Source: a virus. Taken from it: DNA of 56,894 nucleotides. Shown in pieces: positions 23,643 to 56,894 of this stretch. The stretch covers positions 1 through 56,894 of the IMG/VR virus record IMGVR_UViG_3300032331_001429, one strand, 5' to 3'. Every line of letters starts with the position of its first letter. Position 1 is the stretch's first letter. The position numbers and the translations under genes are program-made. The notes beneath the pieces are model-generated. The model was not told the DNA's origin, did no database searches, and saw only the letters and a list, made by a program, of their open reading frames with translations.

Positions 23643-24581
23643 TTAAAAATCTGGTACTAGTCCCTGCTCTCTCAGTATCTGCCTGCGCCGTTCTAGATCT
23701 TGTTCTTGTTGATCTTTTCTTAAACTATATGCTCTTCCTACTTGTATAGACTCTTCAACAGTTTTAAACAGATCTCTTTCTACTCTTGCTGTTATCGCGT
23801 TTTGCTGTATACTTACTAGTTTATTGTAGGCTGCGCCCATGCTATCTTCTACTAATTTACTTAAACTACTAAATGCAGCCTTAGCGCCTAACTCTCCATA
23901 TCTAATTGCTTGTTTAGTAATATTTTGGTAAGAACTCCCAGCTGTCAGTGGCATGACATCCGTTGCTACATAAGTATATGTAGTTTCTGTATATAAGTCA
24001 TCTACGCTATATGTAGTTCCGTAATTAGTTATGGTTATTCCATGTATTATTTGAGATGCAACAGCACCTGCTTCAGTACAAGCTGTAATGACTATAGAAA
24101 AAGGAGGAAGCTGGTCTGCGACTAGTGAAGTTGTAGCATTAGCAAAACTTTCTCCTATGCCAACATCTACTACATCATTAAAAGGATCTTTTTTAATTGT
24201 TGCAAACACAAGACTTCCAGCAAAAGTTCTTGCTCCTCTAGTGTACCCTATAGGACTAGATCTTCCAAATACTCTTATAGGAGAAACTGATCTAGTAGAA
24301 GAAATAGATATAGTTTGTAGATCTGCAAATATTTTAAACTTACGAGAATCTTCTCCTACCAAGGATCCTTTAGTAAGAAGTGGTAAGTATATAGCTGCTT
24401 TGATGTCGGGACCGGCAAACGTCTGGTACTCTTCGTACTTGCTCCATCTAGCAGAAGCATCTTTTTGATATCTCTTAGCCTGTAAATCAGTTATCTCATT
24501 GGCTAATGTATTAGCATAGTTTTTATAATAGTAAGGACTAGCTTTATAATGAGCTGGATTAGGTGATTGAAAACTAGTCAT
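23643..24581 (-). CDS. Tail tube-like paralogue 2 (extended)
   Basis: 312 residues. The core matches the 228-residue tube protein upstream: PIRVFG at about 101-106, RGARTFAGSLVFATI at about 115-129, then FSIVITACTEAGAVASQIIHG and SVDDLYTETTYTYVAT. It has an extra N-terminal ~60 residues and a helical, charged C-terminal extension (RKDQQEQDLERRRQILREQG). A second, larger tube-fold protein suggests a tube initiator, terminator or baseplate adaptor that caps one end of the tube. It is preceded by a strong GC-rich hairpin at 24604-24631 that could reduce its expression relative to the major tube. Confidence 0.68.
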   Translation of the reverse strand: MTSFQSPNPAHYKASPYYYKNYANTLANEITDLQAKRYQKDASARWSKYEEYQTFAGPDIKAAIYLPLLTKGSLVGEDSRKFKIFADLQTISISSTRSVSPIRVFGRSSPIGYTRGARTFAGSLVFATIKKDPFNDVVDVGIGESFANATTSLVADQLPPFSIVITACTEAGAVASQIIHGITITNYGTTYSVDDLYTETTYTYVATDVMPLTAGSSYQNITKQAIRYGELGAKAAFSSLSKLVEDSMGAAYNKLVSIQQNAITARVERDLFKTVEESIQVGRAYSLRKDQQEQDLERRRQILREQGLVPDF

Positions 24582-24603
24582 AGCTACTCTCTTAAATGGA
24601 AAT

Positions 24604-24631
24604 GGAGGAACGGACTGTTGCCCGCCCCTCC
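24604..24631 (-). terminator. GC-rich hairpin after the major tube gene (possible partial terminator)
   Basis: On the minus strand GGAGGGGCGG pairs with CCGTTCCTCC across an 8-base loop: ten pairs including two G-U wobbles. It lies between the tube gene stop and the next start. The tract that follows (ATTTCCATTT) is only weakly T-rich, so it may act as a leaky terminator or a 3' mRNA-stabilising hairpin, not as a full stop. Confidence 0.45.
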
Positions 24632-24650
24632 ATACTACGTGTCAGAAATA

Positions 24651-25337
24651 TTAGCCAGCAACGAATGCAGCCGACTTACCATCGCTGTTGACCTGGACGA
24701 ATCCTTGGTTACTCCAAGGAGTTATTGCAGTAGCAATAAATGTGCAGGCCTCATCTGTGGTTATGTCGTCGATAGACATTGACGATCCGACGTTCATAAC
24801 TTCAACGCCGTGGATCATCATTCTGGCCACCGAGCCGTACTCGTTAGATGCAGTCAACACAATGTCGAAGGGCAGAACTTGATCCAAGTAGTTAGGTTGG
24901 GCAAGGACCTTATCAAGAGCAATTCTTGATACGGTAGGCGATGCCGAACCAACTGCTGGACCTATAATGCCAGGAAGGACTTCGATAGTATTGATATTGA
25001 CGTCAGCAATCTCAAATCCTTGAGGAATCGAGTAACGGTTAGCTATATATGGTCTATCCTTCATCACCTCTAAGAGTGACGATCTATCAAACACGGTGAA
25101 GACTATAGAGCCAGCAATACCTCTCTTTCCACGGGAGAAGGATCTAGGATCCGCGTCTCCCATGGTGTAGATTGGAGCTTTCTCTCTCTGCACTGTGTAG
25201 GATATGCCCTGAAGTTCTCCTATAATCTTTCCTCCGAAAGTGGCGACCATGTCGACACCGGAGAAGCTATTATAGGTTTTAGAGAACGATGAGCCTGACT
25301 TTTGTGAGCCAGATGGTGATACGCCTTTAGTCGCCAT
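24651..25337 (-). CDS. Major tail tube protein (tube paralogue 1)
   Basis: 228 residues, immediately downstream of the tail sheath as expected for a contractile-tail tube protein. It is beta-rich with YTVQREKAPIYTMGDADP, the RGKRGIAGSIVFTVF strand, IVLTASNEYGSVARMMIHGVEVMN and SIDDITTDE...FIATAITP. This order is typical of myophage tubes whose subunits insert into ring interfaces. It has a canonical GGAGG site before the ATG. Its codons are visibly richer in G and C than the neighbouring minor tail genes, as for other high-copy virion proteins here. This suggests it is the major tube and that the two downstream paralogues are minor. Confidence 0.82.
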   Translation of the reverse strand: MATKGVSPSGSQKSGSSFSKTYNSFSGVDMVATFGGKIIGELQGISYTVQREKAPIYTMGDADPRSFSRGKRGIAGSIVFTVFDRSSLLEVMKDRPYIANRYSIPQGFEIADVNINTIEVLPGIIGPAVGSASPTVSRIALDKVLAQPNYLDQVLPFDIVLTASNEYGSVARMMIHGVEVMNVGSSMSIDDITTDEACTFIATAITPWSNQGFVQVNSDGKSAAFVAG

Positions 25338-31453: not shown

Positions 31454-34400
31454 TCATGCTATTGTAATAGGATTTACAGTATAAGGATAGGTCAAAGGTT
31501 TTCCAACATCTTCGTTGTCTATAGTGCTTCCTGGCTCTGTGCTTCCTGGTTCACTAATAGGTATATCTGGGTATTCTTGATACACAGGAACGTTATCTGG
31601 ACTTGTAGACAGTTTTGGTCCATCTATAGATAATTGAATTATTGCATGTATTTTAGGTCCACGTAAATTTGCTGTAGTAACTATAAGAATTTCGTTAACA
31701 ATACTTTCTCCTTCTACTTCTTGAGGCTCTTCATGAGACCAATCATATGACAGTCTTATATCTTGCACAGCAAATTTATATAAAGTATCTCCTACTGCTT
31801 TAACCGATATATTAGCATTTGTAGGAGTTACGCAGTAAACAGTAAATGGGAACACAATTGATCTGGCCTGTAATAGAACTTCGGTTTCCTCGTCCGAACC
31901 AATCTTTTTCCCAATCGTAACCGATCTAACATTATTAGTTTGAATGTCAGGTTCATTTACTACAGCGTTTCCGTCTAAAGTTGAGACTGCTTTTATCATA
32001 TCACCATTACCTAAAAAATCTTGGTAGATAGCTAAAAAAGGCCAAGCAGCTCTATCCCATTCTCCAATATCAAAAGAAGCTTCTGCTAGTTTAAAGTCTA
32101 CTATAGCTTTAGCTTTGCTATACAAAGCTGCTACAGAGTAGTTTGGATCGTTTGATGTATAGTAATTATTTTTTATACCATTAAGAACCACGCTAGCGCA
32201 CACTGCCTGCCAAACACCGTAATAAGGATCAAATTGTGCCCATCTTGGACCCTCTTGAGTGTATATATTCCATATACATCTTGTGTCAGTTTCTTCTAAA
32301 TCTGTTTTAGTTAATGGCTTTCTGTAACTTGGAGCGTCTTTTCCAAGACCATATTTATCAAAGCAGTAGCTACTTATTCCATACCAGCCAATTACAGAGG
32401 TTGCCGTTCCTTCATTTGGATTAGGTTGATATTGATTTGAGTCATAAATAACTTGACCATTTACAATGACCTCCAGGGGTTCTGATATATAAGATCCAAT
32501 ATAATTAAAACCTGGACTTGAAACATTTTTAAGTGCAATTGCTACTTCACTTACTAACGATCCTCCACCAGGGAAGGCTCCTCCTTCTAATCTATTAATA
32601 ATTGCAGTAGTACCAGACACTGTACCACGGATAGTAGCCCCAACTGGGAAACACTGTATTTTTCTTGCTGGAGAATCAGCAAAAAGTCCATTTCCTGCTA
32701 CAACCTTTACTAGAAGTCTAGTCCAGTTATATTCTGATCCTGGTCCGAAATAATGAGTACAGTGCATAGTCACGGTAGCAGCAAGATCCCATGCAATATT
32801 TCTAGGTATACTATCAAACAGTGGTATTGATCCTGGAGCTATTGATTGACCAGGACCAGTAAGTTTTGTTATGGTATAACCACTCATGTAAGCACCAAAA
32901 GGAAATAGATCTTCAAACATTCTTTGTAGAGCTACATAACTAGCAACCACAAACGCAGACTGCCATGGAGTCATCCATGGATTTGCTCCAGGCTGGAAGA
33001 CAAACAAACCACCGACAGGAATTTCAGGATCTCCAATCTGATCTAACCTTCCAGGGAGATAATAATTTCTAGACCCATCTGACCAAGAAAATGGAGCGTC
33101 AATAAACTTTAATTTTTCTATGCCTCCTGGATTGCCATACTCCCAAGACAACTTGACAGTGTTGCCGAGCCAATATCTTCTTATTACTGCTTTTAAAAGA
33201 TCTTCAATCCCTGTAGCATAGTATAAAACTATCCCTGTCTGAAGCATTCTAGCTGACGCTCGGTCTGCTTCCCAAGAATCTATAGTTGGATTATTTCTAA
33301 AATATAGTGGCATACAAGCGGCAAAGTTTTCTGCCCAAGATTGAGCAAAACAATCTAATAAAAAGTAATCTGCTGAAATAATAGCAGCAAGTGCTTCTTG
33401 ATGACTAGAGCAGTGCTGTCTATCTAATCCTGCCCACTCTTCTGCAGGTTCTTGTGCTGTTGCTGCTTGAACTGGCCAGCTAAATTCGTGCATTCCCATG
33501 TAGTCGGGACTGTATCCCTGAACTTCTCCAGACCATAGCAAGACATCTGGATAGTTCTGTATTTTAAATATAGTTCCATCTTGCTCATATAACCACATTG
33601 GTCGTTGTCCCCACAGCCCTACAGAGTGAACAATATAAGGTATTTCTCTTGAGTAAGACGCTAAAATAGTGTAATATAAAGGGTTATTATGGAATGCATT
33701 TCCTAAAACACCTTGATTTCCGCCTCCAGGAGCAAATGGTCTAAGACCATATGGTCCTACAGGAAATGGCATAGGCTGGCGTCTTCCTAAATTCTCGTAG
33801 TAATTATGACGACTAAACATCATGCGATCTATTCTAGCAGTCTGATCTGCTCTGTCACTAGGATCTACATTAGGAGGAAATGGAGTATCTAGGAAGGCAG
33901 GCGGTACATACTTGCCCCAGCCTTCTGCAATTGCGCTAAGTTCTTCTTGTCTTTCTGCTAGTATAGTAGACCTTTGGTTATTTCCTAAAATTAGACATCC
34001 CCTAAAGTTTCTACAAGTTGCATACTTCATCCCATCGGTATGCCTTTCTCTCATAAAATTTGGATCTTCCAAGACATATAAATAACCATTGGTTGTAGGA
34101 TAATTAGAAGGGAAGTTGTTTAAATTTAGTTTAGAGTAAATGTGCTCTTCAAATCTAAATAAAGAATCACACCCAGCAATAGTTAGTGCTGTGTAGTCTG
34201 TAAGGACATGATGCCGTTGTTGAAAGGCATACTGTCCAATACTTTGTCCACCGCCTCTTGAGATATGCGAGCAGCCGTATCTAAACCAGAAATTTACATG
34301 TTCTATAGGCGTGCTGCTAATAATATTTTGAGTTGCTCCATAAATACCTAGAGAGGGTACATCAAAAGTCATTTCTACCCATATCCATTGCATAGTTTGG

Positions 34401-34855
34401 AATGGTCTAGCAAAGTATTTATACCTTCGATAATGAGTGTCAGACCCTCCAGTGCTTATTAAGGTTAGCTGATTGAAGTCTAATTCAACTTCTTGACCGT
34501 TCATTGCAAAATAAAATCTGATACCCCTAAACATATTATACACAGTCGCATCATAGGGAACTGTAGTATAGGATCCGCCAGAAGGATTGACTACTGCACG
34601 ACGCTCAGAGTTAGCTGCAACGTCTGCTCTAAATGCTATCTTTCCATATCTATAAGATCCATCTTCGTGGTTAGCACCATAAGGTTCCCACTGAACTTTT
34701 TGAGTAAAGGTTGGATCAGATCCCAGGCCATTAGCCTGCGATACAGTAATAATTTGATTTAAGGAGGTTACTTCACCTTTGTCAAAAGGAAAACCACATA
34801 TTACTATTCCACTTCTGTTGTGATTTGTTTTGTTTAAAACATAAACTGGTCTCAT
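31454..34855 (-). CDS. Large glycan-lyase-like virion protein (RIFT barrel plus alpha-toroid type)
   Basis: 1133 residues with a strong AAGGAGG site. The N-terminal ~170 residues resemble the RIFT-barrel domain of exo-rhamnogalacturonan-lyase/YetA-like proteins: GIVICGFPFDKGEVTSL, then a DGSYRYGKIAFRADV segment and beta-sandwich strands. The middle (about 430-750) has many Trp/Tyr/His residues and helices such as NPWMTPWQSAFVVASYVALQ, as in (alpha/alpha)-toroid polysaccharide lyases. The C-terminal ~150 residues are beta-rich and end in a Pro/Glu/Ser tail. It is encoded right after the major capsid gene and is bounded by hairpins on both sides, so it may be independently expressed. Predicted role: a capsid- or neck-borne polysaccharide-binding or -degrading protein. 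Catalytic residues could not be assigned. Confidence 0.5.
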   Translation of the reverse strand: MRPVYVLNKTNHNRSGIVICGFPFDKGEVTSLNQIITVSQANGLGSDPTFTQKVQWEPYGANHEDGSYRYGKIAFRADVAANSERRAVVNPSGGSYTTVPYDATVYNMFRGIRFYFAMNGQEVELDFNQLTLISTGGSDTHYRRYKYFARPFQTMQWIWVEMTFDVPSLGIYGATQNIISSTPIEHVNFWFRYGCSHISRGGGQSIGQYAFQQRHHVLTDYTALTIAGCDSLFRFEEHIYSKLNLNNFPSNYPTTNGYLYVLEDPNFMRERHTDGMKYATCRNFRGCLILGNNQRSTILAERQEELSAIAEGWGKYVPPAFLDTPFPPNVDPSDRADQTARIDRMMFSRHNYYENLGRRQPMPFPVGPYGLRPFAPGGGNQGVLGNAFHNNPLYYTILASYSREIPYIVHSVGLWGQRPMWLYEQDGTIFKIQNYPDVLLWSGEVQGYSPDYMGMHEFSWPVQAATAQEPAEEWAGLDRQHCSSHQEALAAIISADYFLLDCFAQSWAENFAACMPLYFRNNPTIDSWEADRASARMLQTGIVLYYATGIEDLLKAVIRRYWLGNTVKLSWEYGNPGGIEKLKFIDAPFSWSDGSRNYYLPGRLDQIGDPEIPVGGLFVFQPGANPWMTPWQSAFVVASYVALQRMFEDLFPFGAYMSGYTITKLTGPGQSIAPGSIPLFDSIPRNIAWDLAATVTMHCTHYFGPGSEYNWTRLLVKVVAGNGLFADSPARKIQCFPVGATIRGTVSGTTAIINRLEGGAFPGGGSLVSEVAIALKNVSSPGFNYIGSYISEPLEVIVNGQVIYDSNQYQPNPNEGTATSVIGWYGISSYCFDKYGLGKDAPSYRKPLTKTDLEETDTRCIWNIYTQEGPRWAQFDPYYGVWQAVCASVVLNGIKNNYYTSNDPNYSVAALYSKAKAIVDFKLAEASFDIGEWDRAAWPFLAIYQDFLGNGDMIKAVSTLDGNAVVNEPDIQTNNVRSVTIGKKIGSDEETEVLLQARSIVFPFTVYCVTPTNANISVKAVGDTLYKFAVQDIRLSYDWSHEEPQEVEGESIVNEILIVTTANLRGPKIHAIIQLSIDGPKLSTSPDNVPVYQEYPDIPISEPGSTEPGSTIDNEDVGKPLTYPYTVNPITIA

Positions 34856-49091: not shown

Positions 49092-49574
49092 TCAACTACC
49101 GTCTTCCTCAAGTTCCCTAAGTGAGGAAAGTCTTTGTTCCATTGCGGCCATTTCGTAGGCTTGATAACCTTCCGGGTTGCCCACAGCAAGGTTAGCCAAC
49201 TTTATAGCCTTCTCAATTTCAAAAATGACGCGGTCCTTAATTTGCTCCAGACTGTCTGATGCAAAGAACTGACTTTGTGTTTGAGGGATCATTATAGGCC
49301 CAGTGGGGGCCTTGTTGAGCTCAGGCATTACCGAGAAGGACAGAGTTACTCCCCAACGAGGATTCCTCTTTCCACCTGTAGCAATGTCAGGTAATGACTT
49401 TAAACCTTGCGGTACAGTTATTACCTCCATAGTCTCATGGTTCTGAACCTCTCTACACGCTTCTGGAGGCGTTTGCTTAACGACCTCGTCAAATTTAGCT
49501 ATGAAATCCTGCACGCTAGCGGCAGACTGGGTTGTCTTGCCAGCTCCTGGGAACTTGATGATTGTGTCGGCCAT
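49092..49574 (-). CDS. Small acidic/neutral protein, unknown function
   Basis: 160 residues; the start overlaps the stop of the upstream zinc protein gene by one base (TAATG). The N-terminus (MADTIIKFPGAGKTTQS) contains GAGKTT, but this lacks the GxxxxGK(S/T) spacing and following fold of a P-loop ATPase, so ATPase identity is rejected. The middle has strands (WGVTLSFSVMPEL) and the C-terminal ~60 residues are helical (LEQIKDRVIFEIEKAIKLANLAV; MEQRLSSLRELEED). The likely role is structural or regulatory and unknown. The gene is followed by the terminator region. Confidence 0.6.
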   Translation of the reverse strand: MADTIIKFPGAGKTTQSAASVQDFIAKFDEVVKQTPPEACREVQNHETMEVITVPQGLKSLPDIATGGKRNPRWGVTLSFSVMPELNKAPTGPIMIPQTQSQFFASDSLEQIKDRVIFEIEKAIKLANLAVGNPEGYQAYEMAAMEQRLSSLRELEEDGS

Positions 49575-49771
49575 TATTCGGTTATTATTATCTTAGTTAA
49601 AGGTTCATGTATGTGTTTTTTGCATTTATCACACACATCGTCATTAACTACGTTTGCATTTTGTATAGTTCTAGTATTTGTAAATCTGCAGTTAGGCTTG
49701 TCACATACCCATATGATATTTTTGATTTTACGTTTGGCTTTATTGGGTTCTTTCACTTTAGCCTCTGCCAT
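49574..49771 (-). CDS. Small zinc-ribbon protein
   Basis: 65 residues. Two Cys pairs (CDKPNC and CDKC, 25 residues apart) followed by KKHIHE form a likely zinc ribbon, preceded by a very basic N-terminus (KVKEPNKAKRKIKN). Such small proteins bind nucleic acid or partner enzymes. It is the first gene after the terminator that closes the CTGC-protein array and is separated from that terminator by a leader with a perfect 14-bp palindrome, so it may begin a separate transcript. Confidence 0.72.
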   Translation of the reverse strand: MAEAKVKEPNKAKRKIKNIIWVCDKPNCRFTNTRTIQNANVVNDDVCDKCKKHIHEPLTKIIITE

Positions 49772-49836: not shown

Positions 49837-49866
49837 AATAAAAAAGGGGGCCTTTTGGACCCCCTA
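49837..49866 (-). terminator. Rho-independent terminator at the end of the CTGC array
   Basis: On the minus strand AGGGGGTCC-AAAA-GGCCCCCT, a stem of about nine pairs with one T-C mismatch, is followed by TTTTTTATTTAA. It lies 28 bases after the last gene of the tandem CTGC/CxxC array, so that array ends its transcript here. Confidence 0.82.
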
Positions 49867-49893: not shown

Positions 49894-50514
49894 TCAGCCG
49901 GTCGTGCAGGGTGTGCACTGCAAGAATATTGGCTCAATTGTTTGAGACCACAGAGAAGTTCCAAAGGAACTTGGAATCGAGTAAATAGCTTGCAGGTAAG
50001 TTGTAAACTGCTGACCACATGGAGTAACTTTTTCTGCATTTCTCATTTTTACTGTAGCAGTTCTGGCACCAGAGTACGTTAGTGTTGCAACGTGAGTTAC
50101 GCCACCACCGTAGATGTCAAAAGTCAACAGCTGTATGTTTGCAGTTCTATTAGCATTCAGGAGACCTGAAGCTGCCGTTATGTCTATGTAGACGTTAGCG
50201 CCACAACCAAACTCATCTCTCATAGTGCAGCCCGTGCTGTCTATGATTACAAGCCCTGTTCCTCCGCCAGTAGTTCCTGTATATCCAGTTCCTGGGGTGA
50301 TTACGTTATAAGTAGTTTCAGAGCATTGACCAACATAAGGATTGGTATACCTTACTGTATAGGTAGCACCTATCCATGATCCTGCTGGGTTTGAGAACAG
50401 CAGTGGCTCTGAGTATGGTAGACCTCCGGTAGTTCCAGTACAAACTGCAAAGTTTAAATTACCGTAGTTATTTACTGTAGATAGAACCGGGACACATCCT
50501 GTGCAAATTACCAT
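49894..50514 (-). CDS. CTGC...CxxC paralogue A1 (beta-rich virion-type protein)
   Basis: 206 residues. Begins MVICTGC and ends with EPIFLQCTPCTTG, the terminal cysteine signature shared with four other genes in this cluster. Between them the sequence is all-beta and Gly/Thr-rich (GYTGTTGGGTG; DIYGGGVTHVATLTYSG). Internal cysteines near residues 93-103 could form another pair. There is no signal peptide, so it is probably cytoplasmic until virion assembly. As the last gene of the array it precedes a terminator. The function is unknown; an exposed decoration or adhesive fibre-type subunit is the leading inference. Confidence 0.6.
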   Translation of the reverse strand: MVICTGCVPVLSTVNNYGNLNFAVCTGTTGGLPYSEPLLFSNPAGSWIGATYTVRYTNPYVGQCSETTYNVITPGTGYTGTTGGGTGLVIIDSTGCTMRDEFGCGANVYIDITAASGLLNANRTANIQLLTFDIYGGGVTHVATLTYSGARTATVKMRNAEKVTPCGQQFTTYLQAIYSIPSSFGTSLWSQTIEPIFLQCTPCTTG

Positions 50515-50538
50515 TGTGTTTTCTCCTTTAGTTATTTA

Positions 50539-51180
50539 TCAGATAGGTGGTAAGTAAGAACCAGAACTGCATGGAGAGCAGTTGTAAACGTGCGTAGAAT
50601 TGTGCTCAAGATAACCGCTAGTTCCCACTAATCCAAATTTAAAGTTAAAGCCGTAGTACTCAGAGAATCCACAGTTTAAAGCGTTGTTTGGAGTAGGATT
50701 CAGAATCATTAGACCAGTTGGAATCACCGCATCCGGTAATGTCACATTTCTTACTGATCCAATGCCGCCTCGGGTGTAGTCGTAGACCGTTAGAGTTCCA
50801 TAAGGAGTTCCTGGCCAACCTGACCAGAATAAAGGATCTCCTGAGAACTCAATTTTAAAGTCTCCGCCTTTGCACCAACCTTGTCCAGTGCATCCTGAAC
50901 CACTGACGAATGTGATTCCGCCAGATATCCCGGTTGCGCCTGTAGTAAAGTACCGTCTAGCGTATTCTCGGCAGTATCCTGACAAGAATAGGTTTGAATA
51001 GACGTTAATCGTTCCTAGTGAAATGTTTGTTCCTGACCAGCCCTGGAATGCACCAACTCCAGTAGCGGTCACATACATTGATAGCACATTTTGATACGAG
51101 GTAGCCGATGTTCCCGTGTATTGCAGTATGACGCTGTCAAATGACGGGGAGCATCCGGTGCAATTTAGTGTATTAGCCAT
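50539..51180 (-). CDS. CTGC...CxxC paralogue A2
   Basis: 213 residues, with terminal motifs LNCTGC near residue 7 and YNCSPC near the end, followed by a short tail. The middle shares FSGDPLFWSGWPGTPYGTLTVYDY with the FSGNP..Y..AP element of the other A members. The CREYARRYF and GCTGQGWCKG segments supply additional Cys, conserved in number if not position in several paralogues. Upstream lies an 82-base gap with AT-rich, repeated GTAAAATA-type elements that may hold a promoter. Function unknown. Confidence 0.6.
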   Translation of the reverse strand: MANTLNCTGCSPSFDSVILQYTGTSATSYQNVLSMYVTATGVGAFQGWSGTNISLGTINVYSNLFLSGYCREYARRYFTTGATGISGGITFVSGSGCTGQGWCKGGDFKIEFSGDPLFWSGWPGTPYGTLTVYDYTRGGIGSVRNVTLPDAVIPTGLMILNPTPNNALNCGFSEYYGFNFKFGLVGTSGYLEHNSTHVYNCSPCSSGSYLPPI

Positions 51181-51206
51181 TAATAATCTCCCTTGTATTC
51201 TTCCTT

Positions 51207-51231
51207 CTATTTACTGCACAAGTATTTTACA
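51207..51231 (-). promoter_or_regulatory. Candidate AT-rich promoter element (TGTAAAATAC...GTAAATAG)
   Basis: On the minus strand, in the gap before paralogue A2, TGTAAAATAC is followed by GTAAATAG. The same 10-mer TGTAAAATAC and a GTAAAATAG occur in the gap before paralogue A5 (54010-54039). Recurrence in two gaps of this operon makes a phage-specific promoter or a processing signal possible. No start site is known. Confidence 0.3.
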
Positions 51232-51262
51232 TATATGACAGAACTGGCTAAAAATTTAACAC

Positions 51263-51712
51263 TTAGCTAGTGGGACTACATCCCAGTGTCCAAGATCTAT
51301 CTGCAGTAAGATTACCAGCAAATGGAGGCAGCATTGTAACTACTTTAATCTCAATGCCATCTGTCGCTCCACAGGTAAGTTTATCAAATTTTACTACACC
51401 AAGTTTGTCTAAAGATAAATCTTTTTCAAAGTTATCTTTTTTGCTTACTTGAGTAACATATATTTCGGCTCTTGTGTTAGTTATAATGAGATTAAAGGTA
51501 AAATCCTGACTAAGGGCAATTAATAGAGGATTGACTCTAAACTTGGGGTGAAGATATACGCAATCCTCAGTATCCTCTACTGTCAGGGCTAGATCACCTA
51601 CATAGGTATTAGTAGCTTTCTCTAAGGTCCCAAATCCACTAGCGTAAAGAGGGGTCCAAGTTACCTCAGATCCCTCTACTACCAGCTTACAACCTTCGGG
51701 ACACTTTACCAT
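51263..51712 (-). CDS. Divergent short member or neighbour of the CTGC array
   Basis: 149 residues. Begins MVKCPEGCKL, a CxxxC near the N-terminus instead of CTGC, and ends WTLGCSPTS with one Cys. The body is beta-rich (WTPLYASGFGTLEK; DFTFNLIITNTRAEIYVTQVS). It may be a shortened relative that lost one terminal Cys, or an unrelated small virion protein inserted in the array. It lies between A2 and A3 with a short gap to A3 and a long one to A2. Confidence 0.55.
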   Translation of the reverse strand: MVKCPEGCKLVVEGSEVTWTPLYASGFGTLEKATNTYVGDLALTVEDTEDCVYLHPKFRVNPLLIALSQDFTFNLIITNTRAEIYVTQVSKKDNFEKDLSLDKLGVVKFDKLTCGATDGIEIKVVTMLPPFAGNLTADRSWTLGCSPTS

Positions 51713-51719
51713 GTTAAGG

Positions 51720-52385
51720 TCAGTTGCTGCATTCTTTGCAGTAAAGAGTGAAGTAGCACTGACTTCTTATAGATCCAGTGTACCCAGGAATTAATGTTTG
51801 AGCTTCAATGAGTGCATCATATCTATTACCACAGTCTATTCTCACATTTGTCATGGAAAGACTTCCAGACGGTAGGTAAGAATTACCAGATGAAAGTACA
51901 CCAAAATCTAGGGCAGGAGGTAATCCGTTAGTTGCACTGGAGACCCACGCATAAATTGATGTTCTTGCCGAGGGCGCTCCTATGTAAAGGTCGGGATTGC
52001 CGCTAAACGAGAACCACAACTTACCTACCTTGCAAGGATTTCTTTGATCGCATCCTGTTCGATAAGAATATCCAATATTTCCTGTAAAATCGTTCTCGTA
52101 CATCGGATTTCCGCTGTACAGACCAGTAATTTGTACACCTGTAACAGTCTGGCACAGACCGCTATATCTACGCTCAACATACATATTTAAGGTGCCCAAG
52201 CTATAGCCAGTTATACCGGTCAAAGATCCAAGTCCATCTCCAACCATGTCTATTCTGGTTACAAAAGAAGGCACATATCCATACGGTCCTATAGAGTTAT
52301 TTACTGCTCCGTATGAGCTGCTGTAGACTCTTGTAGGGGCGCTAACAGCATGTGCATAATCTAGGTTACATCCTGTGCAGGGCAT
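51720..52385 (-). CDS. CTGC...CxxC paralogue A3
   Basis: 221 residues: MPCTGC start, YCKECSN end. It shares LTGITGYSLGTLNMYVE with A5 (LSGITGFPLGWINIYLN) and A4 (LSGVTGFYLGYMAVN), and FSGNPDLYIGAPSA with A5 (FSGNPNVYVAAPNGA). These shared blocks, not composition alone, show a tandem-duplicated family. Further Cys lie at internal CDQRNPC, the same region as A5's CTGDIRGC. No signal or membrane segment is present. Confidence 0.65.
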   Translation of the reverse strand: MPCTGCNLDYAHAVSAPTRVYSSSYGAVNNSIGPYGYVPSFVTRIDMVGDGLGSLTGITGYSLGTLNMYVERRYSGLCQTVTGVQITGLYSGNPMYENDFTGNIGYSYRTGCDQRNPCKVGKLWFSFSGNPDLYIGAPSARTSIYAWVSSATNGLPPALDFGVLSSGNSYLPSGSLSMTNVRIDCGNRYDALIEAQTLIPGYTGSIRSQCYFTLYCKECSN

Positions 52386-52408
52386 AATCGAATTTCCTTT
52401 TTAGTTAA

Positions 52409-53041
52409 TTATCCTAATAAGCAGGGCTTACAAATTGTTTCTAGCATTACGCTATTCTCTACTTGACCTGAGTAACCAGGGATTCGTAAAGAGTAGGTCA
52501 GGTTAGCACCAATTGAAGTGCCGCAACTTACTGGCACGTTAGTATTTATATTTCCAGAGAAGCTTTGATTTCCTGAAGTTAGTGCTCCTGCAAAATAAAC
52601 ATTTCCATAGTTATAATCCTGAACTTGAATTGTTACAGTAGCATAGGGAGCGTAGTTCCATATATTGGGATTTGCAGAAAATGAAACTGCTAAATTGCTA
52701 ATGCAAGGAGATGCGCCTGTGCATCCTGTAATTCCTTGTGCCTTCCATCCAGTTAGTCCAGTTAAACCTGTTGAGCCAGTAAAGGTCAGAGAACCGGTAA
52801 CCGCCGTGCAATTCCCTGTCAAGCTCCTTAAGCTATTGACTGCCATATAGCCTAGATAGAAGCCAGTCACGCCAGACAGGGCTCCTCGTCCAGATCCAGT
52901 TATTGCTATATAAGGTATTATGGACGAGCTTACTCCAGTTCCTATCGGAGCACTGATTGAGCCATACGGGGCATAAGCTTTAAGGTGTTGCGAGCATCCT
53001 GTACAAAATTGCTGAAGTTCTTTAGGTGCGGGACCGGCCAT
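52409..53041 (-). CDS. CTGC...CxxC paralogue A4
   Basis: 210 residues. A short N-terminal extension precedes FCTGC, and the protein ends ETICKPCLLG. Family blocks GALSGVTGFYLGY and FSANPNIWNYAPYATVTI are present, with internal CTGASPC. The segment near residues 85-105 is a collagen-like TG-rich run (TGSTGLTGLTG). Such runs vary among the paralogues and could reflect slippage-driven diversification. It sits between A3 and a 75-residue gene. Confidence 0.63.
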   Translation of the reverse strand: MAGPAPKELQQFCTGCSQHLKAYAPYGSISAPIGTGVSSSIIPYIAITGSGRGALSGVTGFYLGYMAVNSLRSLTGNCTAVTGSLTFTGSTGLTGLTGWKAQGITGCTGASPCISNLAVSFSANPNIWNYAPYATVTIQVQDYNYGNVYFAGALTSGNQSFSGNINTNVPVSCGTSIGANLTYSLRIPGYSGQVENSVMLETICKPCLLG

Positions 53042-53059
53042 TTTTGTTATCCTTTAAAA

Positions 53060-53287
53060 TTAAAAGCTATTCATTAGTTCGACTACTATATCTTTATAAG
53101 TATCTTGCATGATATGTACACCAAGAACCACATCAGGGCTTCCACAGCAACCTTCTGGTGCTTCTGCTAGTGTCTTTTCAATTTTTGACAATATAGTTTG
53201 TTTCTTTTCTTGGCTTATATTAGTTAGTGCTGAAACGTTAGTCTTAAGTTCATTAAGCTTGTAAATTATTTGATCTTTAACTGTCAT
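53060..53287 (-). CDS. Small helical protein within the CTGC array
   Basis: 75 residues with an amphipathic helical N-terminal part (DQIIYKLNELKTNVSALTNISQEKKQTILSKI), CC near residue 47 and a helical end. It is packed tightly between A4 and A5 without extra gaps. It is unlike the beta-rich neighbours and could be an assembly partner or chaperone of the array proteins. No family recognised. Confidence 0.55.
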   Translation of the reverse strand: MTVKDQIIYKLNELKTNVSALTNISQEKKQTILSKIEKTLAEAPEGCCGSPDVVLGVHIMQDTYKDIVVELMNSF

Positions 53288-53288
53288 C

Positions 53289-53987
53289 CTACACTCCGCC
53301 TGTTCCTGTCTGGCAAGTTGTGCAATTTATGTAGTAATAATAAGTTGCTCTTAGAGATCCAAATACGTTTGGAACAAATGCTTCAAAGGTAAGTTGACTT
53401 CTTGCTATTCCGCCGCAGCTTATATAAACTTGATCTTCTGTGAGGTTTCCAGAAGTAATATTTTGGTTTCTTACATTCAGGCCAGTTGGGGTGTGATACT
53501 TTGTAGGCGCAACATAGCTAGGATTAGATCCAGGAGCCGAGGAGTACGGATTCTGATACATAGCAGTTGAGTAAACGTTCATTGCACCATTAGGTGCGGC
53601 TACGTAAACGTTAGGATTACCAGAGAATTCAAAGTATAGATTGTTTATGGTGCAACCACGGATATCACCAGTGCAGTATTCTGTAGAAGCGTTATAAGAT
53701 ATTCCACTTGATCCAGTAATCAGCTGACCACTTGTAACTGCTGGAAGAGTTAACTGTCCTGTTATACCAACGCAACTACCATCGGTAGGATTGTTTAGGT
53801 AGATATTAATCCAGCCCAGAGGAAACCCGGTTATACCCGAAAGTTCTTGCTGACCAACTCCTTGTACTACATGACTGTATAATTGTATTCTAGGGCCACT
53901 TGAAGTTATGTTTGTTACCGGGCCTTGGAAACTGGCCGCGTCATAACTCATATTTGTTGTTAATTTACATCCTGTGCAGGTAGGCAT
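53289..53987 (-). CDS. CTGC...CxxC paralogue A5
   Basis: 232 residues: MPTCTGC start and YYYYINCTTCQTG end. Shared blocks ELSGITGFPLGWINIYLN and FEFSGNPNVYVAAPNGAMNVY match A3 most closely. It has the internal CTGDIRGC pair and a DQVYISCGGIARSQLTFEAFVP strand matching A3's VRIDCGNRYDALIEAQTLIP. The upstream gap of about 60 bases holds GTAAAATA-type repeats (54010-54039). Confidence 0.65.
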   Translation of the reverse strand: MPTCTGCKLTTNMSYDAASFQGPVTNITSSGPRIQLYSHVVQGVGQQELSGITGFPLGWINIYLNNPTDGSCVGITGQLTLPAVTSGQLITGSSGISYNASTEYCTGDIRGCTINNLYFEFSGNPNVYVAAPNGAMNVYSTAMYQNPYSSAPGSNPSYVAPTKYHTPTGLNVRNQNITSGNLTEDQVYISCGGIARSQLTFEAFVPNVFGSLRATYYYYINCTTCQTGTGGV

Positions 53988-54009
53988 GATTACTATCCTA
54001 TGAAGTTAA

Positions 54010-54048: not shown

Positions 54049-54921
54049 TTATCCACATGGAGTAGAGTAAAGATAGATGCGGCCTTGTACTGCTATATAT
54101 CCTTTATTAAATAATTGACCAGGTATAGCACTTCTTCCCCCGTTAAACGCTGCTCTATAATGTAACTCAGAAACAGATCCCCTAGTTACAGTAGTTTCGT
54201 ATACATTTGCTGGCCTAGTGGGCAGTAACCTAGCCATATCTGTTCCTAAGGACCATACTAATGACGGTCGAGTAGGATTAGGGATAGTATTTACAAAGTT
54301 TACCCAATCCACAGTCAAAGGAAAGGTATTTAAGTAGTCTAGACAAACTAGTTTAGGGTAGTATAGCGGTATGTTTGGAGCAAGTGGCAAAGAGTGAGCT
54401 AGTATTTCTCCAGGTCCAAATCCATAGCTAATTAAAAACTGACCGTAAGGACTATCAGATCCGACTACGACAGGAAGATTAAAACCTAAACTTGAGCCCA
54501 CGGGGGCTGTCGATGAGTTTTGTAAAGGTCTGTAATAAGGTTCAGTAAAAGTTATATTTAGGTATTTAGTTAAATCTGATGTAGACAGCGGCACGTCTAT
54601 GTCACTTATAAACGCAGGATCGGGATACCATTCAGCCGCAAGAGTCGCCTCGCCTATACCATCACCCTTTAAGGCGCACTCAGTTATTACTCTATTTTTT
54701 CTAGGATCAATATATCTTGTTTCTCTACATGTTGCATAGGTAGCAGGACCATCTGTAAAAATTGATAATTTACCTAATCTTACATTTGATGGGCCATTTA
54801 CAACATCTCCGTAAATATCGGTAGAGCTTACTTGTTGGTATCTGCTACTAGATGTTCTAGTAGGTAGTAGGGTTGAGCCTCCTATCCACGATATACCTAA
54901 TTCTCCCCCGGTACATGCCAT
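54049..54921 (-). CDS. Cys-terminal family B protein 1
   Basis: 290 residues: MACTGGELG start and LYSTPCG end, a reduced form of the terminal Cys pattern. The block NLPVVVGSDSPYGQFLI, then FPLTVDWVNFVNTIP, parallels the DPTSP-(C/L)-G...(L/P)-L-T-(H/V)-(D/N)-W segment of the two B proteins upstream, so it appears to be a diverged relative. It is beta-rich and proline-rich with several Tyr. It is preceded by an 80-base leader with the ACACGTAA octamer. Confidence 0.58.
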   Translation of the reverse strand: MACTGGELGISWIGGSTLLPTRTSSSRYQQVSSTDIYGDVVNGPSNVRLGKLSIFTDGPATYATCRETRYIDPRKNRVITECALKGDGIGEATLAAEWYPDPAFISDIDVPLSTSDLTKYLNITFTEPYYRPLQNSSTAPVGSSLGFNLPVVVGSDSPYGQFLISYGFGPGEILAHSLPLAPNIPLYYPKLVCLDYLNTFPLTVDWVNFVNTIPNPTRPSLVWSLGTDMARLLPTRPANVYETTVTRGSVSELHYRAAFNGGRSAIPGQLFNKGYIAVQGRIYLYSTPCG

Positions 54922-55001
54922 AACTTAGGTCTCCTTGATGCTTGTTGCGAGCTACATAGTTTCCGTATTACTTGTTTACGTGTCAAAATTATAACTACAA
55001 A

Positions 55002-56096
55002 TTACTCGCATGGGCCACAAACTAAATCAATATATACATAGTCAGGGAATATGACCTGGAAACCGCCGAGGCTAATCCAGTTAGAGCATTCTATTATAAA
55101 TCTGTACACCTTACCTGGAGTCAAAATTAATGCTCTTGGTACACCGAAATGATCTTTAGAATTTGTGTACAATTCGTTTTCATTAAATGGATTAAACAAC
55201 TCAAAAGGTCTATTTCTAGGATGCCCTAAAGGTGCCGCTATATAAGCATCAGGTGGCGCATTTGCCGACAGAAGTGGCTCCCATTTTGATTTTCTCCATG
55301 TGTAAGGCGGATTCTTGTCTATTGGCCAATTATGGGTAAGGGGAGTGTCAACTATAAATCCTCCTGCAAATGCCATAGGAGCTTCAAAAATTACACCAGG
55401 AAGGGTACCCCATCCCGTACCTCCTCCAAACAACGGAACAGGATTAAATAACTGCTCACCGTACTGTATGCCTGGAGTAACTCCGCCAGCAGATGGAACA
55501 CCAAGTCCTAGACCGCATGGGCTAGTTGGGTCAACTATAAAAGGTAGCCGTCTACCAAGGTACCCCCATCCTCCCCAAATTCCTTCTAAGTTATTTGGCA
55601 CTCTGTCAAGAAAATTTGAAGCGTGCTCATACAATGTAAATATATTCTTTTTTGGTAAATTGGCTAAAGCACTGTAATTTGCAGTTGCATATACTAAATT
55701 AGGAAATCCTTGTAGAGGATCCGTACTAGGTGGAAGGGGGATAACATCTACATAAAGTTCTATACTTCCATTTGACGCAGGAGCGCACCTATTTGTTGAG
55801 ACTAAAGTTTTATTCTGGGTATTGACTATTGTTTTAGGCTGACATACTGGTTTTATAGGCGTGTCTGCTCCCTTTCTAAATTTTAGGCCTACTGCAGCGG
55901 TTGGTATACTAACACTTGGATTAAAAGGATTAATCTCACTCATAACAAAGGTCGCGATAAGGTTCATACCGGCTGTTGTTGTGTTTAGATCAATATTATA
56001 AGAACCTATTGGGACTCCTTGTACACTATTAACAGTATAAGATTGACGACTAAGATTTACCGTAAGTTTTCCACCGTTGTCTGAACATGTTGCCAT
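55002..56096 (-). CDS. Cys-terminal family B protein 2
   Basis: 364 residues: MATCSDNGGK start, YIDLVCGPCE end. Central blocks LPFIVDPTSPCGLGLG, PGIQYGEQLF, TPLTHNWPIDKNPP and the terminal HFGVPRALILTPGKVYRFII...VYIDLVCGPCE are nearly repeated in the gene upstream. The first ~110 residues are beta-rich, with ITN-type strands. No signal peptide or membrane helix is visible. Function unknown; a virion surface or appendage subunit is inferred from family and placement. Confidence 0.62.
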   Translation of the reverse strand: MATCSDNGGKLTVNLSRQSYTVNSVQGVPIGSYNIDLNTTTAGMNLIATFVMSEINPFNPSVSIPTAAVGLKFRKGADTPIKPVCQPKTIVNTQNKTLVSTNRCAPASNGSIELYVDVIPLPPSTDPLQGFPNLVYATANYSALANLPKKNIFTLYEHASNFLDRVPNNLEGIWGGWGYLGRRLPFIVDPTSPCGLGLGVPSAGGVTPGIQYGEQLFNPVPLFGGGTGWGTLPGVIFEAPMAFAGGFIVDTPLTHNWPIDKNPPYTWRKSKWEPLLSANAPPDAYIAAPLGHPRNRPFELFNPFNENELYTNSKDHFGVPRALILTPGKVYRFIIECSNWISLGGFQVIFPDYVYIDLVCGPCE

Positions 56097-56176
56097 GATT
56101 AATCTCTTAAATTTTCTTTACTTTATTAAAAAAATTTACACATTACTTAGTTGTGTATTAAAATTACAGCTAAGTA

Positions 56177-56894
56177 TTATTCGCATGGACCACAAACTAA
56201 ATCAATATATACAATATCCGGCCACTCAATTCTCATAGGACCCAGATATAATGGACTTGTGACTACTATGCCAAACCTGTATACTCTGCCTGGAGTTAGA
56301 GTTAATGCTCTTGGCACACCAAAATGATCTCTAGGAGTTGGATATATTCCTTCGTAAACAAAAGGAAGGAATATACTTTGAGGAGTATTAGTAGGAGTTC
56401 CTAGTGGTCCCGTTGGATTTACATTAGGAGGAGTTAATATATAACCTGGAGGTTGCCATCCACCTAATGTTGTGGAGTCAACAATATTCCAGTCGTGGGT
56501 TAGTGGCTGATCAAACATCGAAAATCCGGCAAAAGGGAACGGCAAGCTGTGCGGCCCCGGCTGAGCTGGATTTAGCGGATAGTCTAAAGATATGCGACTC
56601 CACAATAATTCATTATACTGTATGCCTACTGGTTGCCCAAAAGGTCCTATATCTCCAAGCGATTGACCCAAAGGACTAGTGGGGTCAATTACAAGAGGCA
56701 AAGATCTTGAAAGATAACCTTGGTTACCTAATATTCCTGGATAGAAATTAGAAAAATTGCTTATTAGGTTTGAAGGGTGCTCACAAAGATAAAACCTATT
56801 TTTTCTAGGAAAAACATCAAACGTCGGGAGTAAGGCGAAATTACTTATAGTGGGGATTTGCTGTAAAGGGTCTAAAAATATAGGATTAGAAATA
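56177..56894 (-). CDS. Cys-terminal family B protein 3 (5' end beyond window)
   Basis: The reading frame stays open to the right edge, so the true start is outside the window. An internal TTG near 56701 is not the start, because the codons before it (including FYLCEHPSN and NQGYLSRSLP) continue the match to family B protein 2 (FTLYEHASN and GWGYLGRRLP). The downstream blocks VIDPTSP, GIQYNELLW, PLTHDWNIVD, HFGVPRALTLTPGRVYRF and the end YIDLVCGPCE match as well. It is evidence of recent tandem duplication that probably continues to the right. Confidence 0.68.
   Translation of the reverse strand, partial: ISNPIFLDPLQQIPTISNFALLPTFDVFPRKNRFYLCEHPSNLISNFSNFYPGILGNQGYLSRSLPLVIDPTSPLGQSLGDIGPFGQPVGIQYNELLWSRISLDYPLNPAQPGPHSLPFPFAGFSMFDQPLTHDWNIVDSTTLGGWQPPGYILTPPNVNPTGPLGTPTNTPQSIFLPFVYEGIYPTPRDHFGVPRALTLTPGRVYRFGIVVTSPLYLGPMRIEWPDIVYIDLVCGPCE

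Follow-up and report, generated by a model that had tools for sequence, protein, structure and literature searches.

The stretch of DNA analysed here, hereafter the window, is the whole of a linear IMG/VR record of 56,894 bases, with all of its substantial genes on the minus strand. Judging by these genes, the 56.9 kb represent part of the structural region of an uncultured large myovirus in the 0305phi8-36 lineage. Among annotated phages, its capsid (29-34% identity) and sheath (30-40%) proteins match only those of Moorella phage MTATph1, Bacillus phage KLEB27-3 and Acinetobacter phage ME3, and the gene order from portal to baseplate is broadly alike in the window and in these three phages. 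The depositors of ME3 annotated its genes as homologous to those of Bacillus phage 0305phi8-36, and we therefore placed the phage in this divergent lineage of large myoviruses. Upstream of the terminase, portal, capsid and sheath genes, and on the same strand, lies an array of five genes encoding cysteine-rich proteins. In the direction of transcription the array is followed by several small genes, an exonuclease-like gene, and the genes for the terminase, the portal, a possible protease and the major capsid protein. Beyond the latter come the tail sheath, two probable tube proteins, proteins of 1,436, 1,635 and 2,083 aa, and the baseplate genes.

Two features of the structural genes deserve separate mention. 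Two adjacent genes (23643-25337, minus strand) match PHROG 9206, which is named major head protein. They follow the sheath directly, at the place where the KLEB27-3 annotation has tail tube proteins, and the label is probably wrong for them. Directly after the major capsid gene lies a gene (31454-34855, minus strand) for a 1133-aa protein with 14 cysteines and no match in Pfam, PHROG or PDB sequences. Its counterparts in relatives (1164 and 1142 aa) occupy the same place and are only 35-39% identical, and the flanking DNA is 68-73% identical between the window and the relatives. By these comparisons the gene is fast-evolving within an otherwise conserved block.

The five array genes, all on the minus strand, are given here in the order of transcription, with the ends of their products. 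The first (53289-53987) encodes 232 aa, from MPTCTGCK to CTTCQTGTGGV, with 8 cysteines. It is followed by a 210-aa member (52409-53041; FCTGCS near the start, CKPCLLG at the end, 8 cysteines) and a 221-aa member (51720-52385; MPCTGCN to CKECSN, 9 cysteines). The last two are a 213-aa protein (50539-51180; MANTLNCTGC to CSPCSSGSYLPPI, 8 cysteines) and the most divergent of the five, a 206-aa protein (49894-50514; MVICTGC to CTPCTTG, 9 cysteines). The initial annotation had reported CTGC at the N-terminus and CxxC at the C-terminus of five proteins, and all five open reading frames bear this out, with CTGC within residues 3-16 and CTPC, CSPC, CKEC, CKPC or CTTC at the other end. The motif TGYACNGGNTGY has six occurrences in the window where 0.22 would be expected, and five of these six are array N-termini. 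The genes had also been described as a tandem array. The five do stand in a row, though one broken by two genes that cannot clearly be counted as members: one encodes a 149-aa protein discussed below, the other (53060-53287, minus strand) a predicted 75-aa protein without the CTGC/CxxC design. The array is closed by an intrinsic-terminator-like hairpin just past its last gene (49845-49865, minus strand), with a stem of 8 bp followed by a T-run and a folding z of -2.28. Just after this hairpin, a small gene (49574-49771, minus strand) encodes a 65-aa protein with CDKPNC and CDKC motifs that looks zinc-ribbon-like by eye.

The five proteins share 20-36% pairwise identity. Leave-one-out HMM scores range from 26.9 to 80.3 bits, above the best score of 9.9 among about 500 shuffles of each, and the five are therefore true paralogues. 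The count of four shared cysteines first proposed is too low: the terminal four are indeed invariant, but so are four internal ones. In the numbering of the 206-aa protein the eight are C4, C7, C64, C96, C104, C166 (followed by Gly), C200 and C203, and the middle pair of the internal set is spaced C-x(5-7)-C. Since cysteines can drive an alignment, we masked all of them and realigned the proteins with L-INS-i and G-INS-i. With L-INS-i, four cysteine columns were complete, three held four of the five members and one held three; in one of the complete columns, one member contributes its neighbouring cysteine. G-INS-i gave a similar result, but lost most of the second N-terminal cysteine (C7) and the column of C104. 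When cysteines were placed at random, no column collected more than four in 20,000 trials, and none ever reached five. Hence, the eight-cysteine alignment appears largely robust to masking.

Two sequence blocks had been put forward as shared by the family, and neither is common to all members. FSGNP is exact in two proteins, nearly so in two others (FSANP and FSGDP) and absent from one, whereas ITGxxLG is clear in three (as ITG or VTGxxLG) and partial in a fourth. The suggestion that the array is diversifying found no support, and we rejected active diversification of the five: the paralogues diverged anciently, there are no tandem DNA repeats, and the repeats inside the five genes are short. 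Their composition is distinctive. Cysteine makes up 3.88% of the residues, against 0.44% in the portal-to-baseplate genes and 0.57% in the rest of the window's genes. Charged residues (K+E+D+R) amount to about 8%, against about 22% elsewhere in the window. The proteins are rich in G (13%), T (11%), S (10%), Y (7%) and N (7%), and His is rare (0.6%).

Cysteines at both ends are also found in neighbouring proteins. The interval first proposed, 49894-54000, holds the five genes, but the terminal-cysteine design continues beyond it into a 290-aa protein (54049-54921, minus strand; MACTGG to YSTPCG) and a 364-aa protein (55002-56096, minus strand; MATCSDNGG to VCGPCE), both of which have cysteines among the four residues at the start and the five at the end. 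The C-terminal half of the design extends to the gene at the end of the contig (56177-56894, minus strand), a truncated paralogue of the 364-aa protein that is 45% identical to it, also ends in VCGPCE and runs off the contig. A direct repeat of 79 nt, 80% identical between its two copies (54960-55038 and 56135-56213), spans the 3' ends of both genes and the intergenic DNA after them. This pair is likely a comparatively recent tandem duplication, the one such likely newer event, and lies outside the five. Profile and alignment comparisons did not show the 290- and 364-aa proteins to be homologous to the array. The 149-aa protein inside the array (51263-51712, minus strand; MVKCPEGCK, an internal LTCGATDG, LGCSPTS at the end) is probably a reduced relative of the family: its last 39 residues match the array profile, CG motif included (11.4 bits, against 5.0 for the best shuffle; hhalign P 0.015). 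Composition-matched shuffles of the 149-, 290- and 364-aa proteins place cysteines at both ends with frequencies of 0.016, 0.005 and 0.006, respectively. In all, eight genes (the five and these three) encode cysteines in both the first and the last 13 residues, as against none of the 36 other genes checked, and the eight form an unbroken row but for the intervening 75-aa gene. The terminal sets of the three neighbours are incomplete, with CPEGC and CSPT in the 149-aa, CTGG and STPC in the 290-aa, and CSDN and CGPC in the 364-aa protein. Of the four terminal cysteines, each retains no more than two or three, and their cysteine numbers are odd.

The array family appears new to the sequence collections that we searched. 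Searches with array proteins, taken singly or as a three-member alignment, found no homologue in the viral or the genome contig collection. The 364-aa protein and the alignment of its pair likewise had none in the viral contigs. Searches with tblastn in phages and plasmids, and a profile search of PDB sequences with the array, returned chance matches only. None of the five matched a Pfam or NCBIfam family at E <= 1, and matches to PHROGs were weak and inconsistent, the best being phrog_27937 (E 0.001, over 38 residues of one protein). Two further hits were also taken as chance: a 12-residue match (L015), and a match in the PDB between a variable lymphocyte receptor and the 364-aa pair (E 0.028). 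Searches based on the terminase retrieved five related contigs (terminase 76-83% identical) and, in a scan of the genome contig collection, no relative. The 5' ends of these five contigs stop 0.9-3.1 kb upstream of the terminase, short of the position of the array. Because they end between terminase and array, its absence from them says little about close relatives. These ends may reflect the end of the genome, a variable region that breaks assemblies, or coincidence. The array is also absent from MTATph1, KLEB27-3 and ME3, which is informative, although these cultured relatives are distant. Among approximately 1,050 open reading frames of at least 80 aa from these three phages and the related contigs (the stretches overlap slightly), only one, of 83 aa and zinc-ribbon-like, has CxxC near both ends.

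We modelled the 210-aa member as a monomer with AlphaFold2, using the five-row alignment, and read the positions of its strands. The model has a mean pLDDT of 60.8 and a pTM of 0.58; its better parts reach 70-82, residues 1-14, 25-40 and 73-111 fall below 50, and the terminal residues lie at about 38-61. Fold searches with it returned generic beta-sandwiches only, none at E <= 0.001. Together with the strand list, these matches identify a beta-sandwich with moderate confidence. In the model, CTGC (residues 13-16) leads into the first strand (15-24), and C204 and C207 close the last strand (193-206). The two termini would thus be neighbours if the first and last strands pair antiparallel, and a terminal clamp joining CTGC and CxxC is plausible on this model. 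C78 and C107 lie just inside the two ends of a long glycine/threonine-rich loop (74-112), and C113 and C173 close to the ends of strands, positions that suggest two further staples. The AlphaFold model of the 364-aa protein (pLDDT 29) was useless.

These observations lead us to favour, tentatively and at somewhat less than even odds, the view that the array encodes stapled beta-sandwich subunits of an outer virion structure. The five genes and at least one shorter probable relative would build an extra structure on the virion, such as a fibre, a collar or a decoration of the head surface. CTGC, where the first strand begins, would meet CxxC, where the last one ends, either at one end of the same sandwich or between neighbouring subunits, and the disulfides formed there would staple the subunit or join it to the next one. 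The internal cysteines would fasten two other places: the turn that follows strand 8, and the glycine/threonine-rich loop linking strands 4 and 5, which would be held at its base. Here we infer the virion location, the disulfide chemistry, the pairing of the cysteines and linkage within or between subunits. That these are surface proteins is indirectly supported, because the array lies in the structural region and its products have few charges and abundant G, T, S, N and Y.

Disulfides are not the only chemistry that would suit these cysteines. The cytosol in which phage proteins are synthesised is reducing, and CxxC...CxxC is an equally classic zinc-knuckle spacing; both points count against the disulfide reading. 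A serious rival, although a somewhat unlikely one, is that the terminal pairs form a Cys4 zinc site, a zinc-ribbon-like clamp closing each sandwich, with the internal cysteines either making up another Cys4 site or pairing as two disulfides. The reducing cytosol would permit zinc binding, the terminal four cysteines are invariant in all five proteins, and two CxxC knuckles, a zinc-ribbon feature, are present in each. However, the family matches no zinc ribbon in Pfam or NCBIfam, the model is a beta-sandwich, and the middle pair is spaced C-x(5-7)-C rather than CxxC. The second cysteine of each terminal pair is never followed by Gly, unlike in many knuckles (V, S, N, S and K at the start; T, S, S, L and Q at the end). 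The three neighbours offer a further comparison. If outer cysteines pair with outer ones and inner with inner, one possible pair is left in each neighbour, whereas the alternative pairing leaves none in the 290-aa protein, and a four-cysteine metal site from the terminal residues is possible in none of the three. If the design is shared, and only then, the incomplete sets would favour disulfides over a four-ligand metal site.

An iron-sulfur cluster like that of the lambda tail-tip protein gpL would be another use of these cysteines, and we consider it highly improbable. A four-cysteine [4Fe-4S] site in a virion protein has a precedent in gpL (PMC10721106), and the cultured phage with the best capsid match has an anaerobe, Moorella, as its host. 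But gpL carries one such site in one protein, as against eight cysteines in five paralogues here, and PHROGs and Pfam gave no sequence match for this reading. The array proteins could also be made by the phage to work inside the host cell or on it rather than as parts of the virion, as their separation from the terminase-capsid genes by the terminator-like hairpin and several small genes, and their absence from the cultured relatives, would allow. We regard this as unlikely, given that the array adjoins the structural region on the same strand, that its products have a low-charge, beta-rich composition and several paralogues, as expected of surface assemblies, and that inspection of their N-termini revealed no apparent secretion signal.

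Known structures show what disulfide-stapled subunits could resemble. In the collar protein gp13 of the Agrobacterium phage Milano, Cys22 and Cys23 near the N-terminus bond Cys211 and Cys229, respectively, near the C-terminus of neighbouring subunits, and the N-terminal Cys3 and Cys7 of the linking proteins LP1 and LP2 anchor a protein with an Ig-type domain (PMC10491603). The array shares with Milano cysteine-rich phage proteins with cysteines near both termini. However, the whole structural proteome of Milano is cysteine-rich, whereas in our phage only the array block is. Since its main structural proteins are cysteine-poor, the phage is unlikely to have a Milano-type network spanning the entire virion. 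As for homology, the PDB-wide sequence search gave chance matches only, and the PDB-wide fold search, with a query model of only moderate quality, gave none at E <= 0.001. In Bacillus, the N-terminal Cys10 or Cys11 of Ena1A/B/C bonds Cys109 of another subunit and yields a covalently joined fibre (PMC12921279). Like the array, these proteins form a small group of paralogous subunits, and the cysteine positions of the array would be compatible with such linkage, but they are bacterial spore appendage proteins with a different cysteine layout, and our family and PDB searches gave no match to them beyond chance. The curly-fibre modules of 0305phi8-36 come from the same lineage as our phage. That a hitherto undescribed family builds a covalent chain or coat on the virion, in which each CTGC bonds the CxxC of the next subunit and paralogues occupy successive positions, while the phage's other structural proteins have almost no cysteine, seems to us improbable.

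The array thus presents a family for which the collections searched yielded no detectable relative, and whose chemical design is simple and testable. Should zinc be bound at its termini, a virion would contain a beta-sandwich of an unusual, metal-closed kind. If the termini are disulfide-linked between subunits, it would provide another, apparently unrelated covalently stitched phage structure beside that of Milano, confined to one module.
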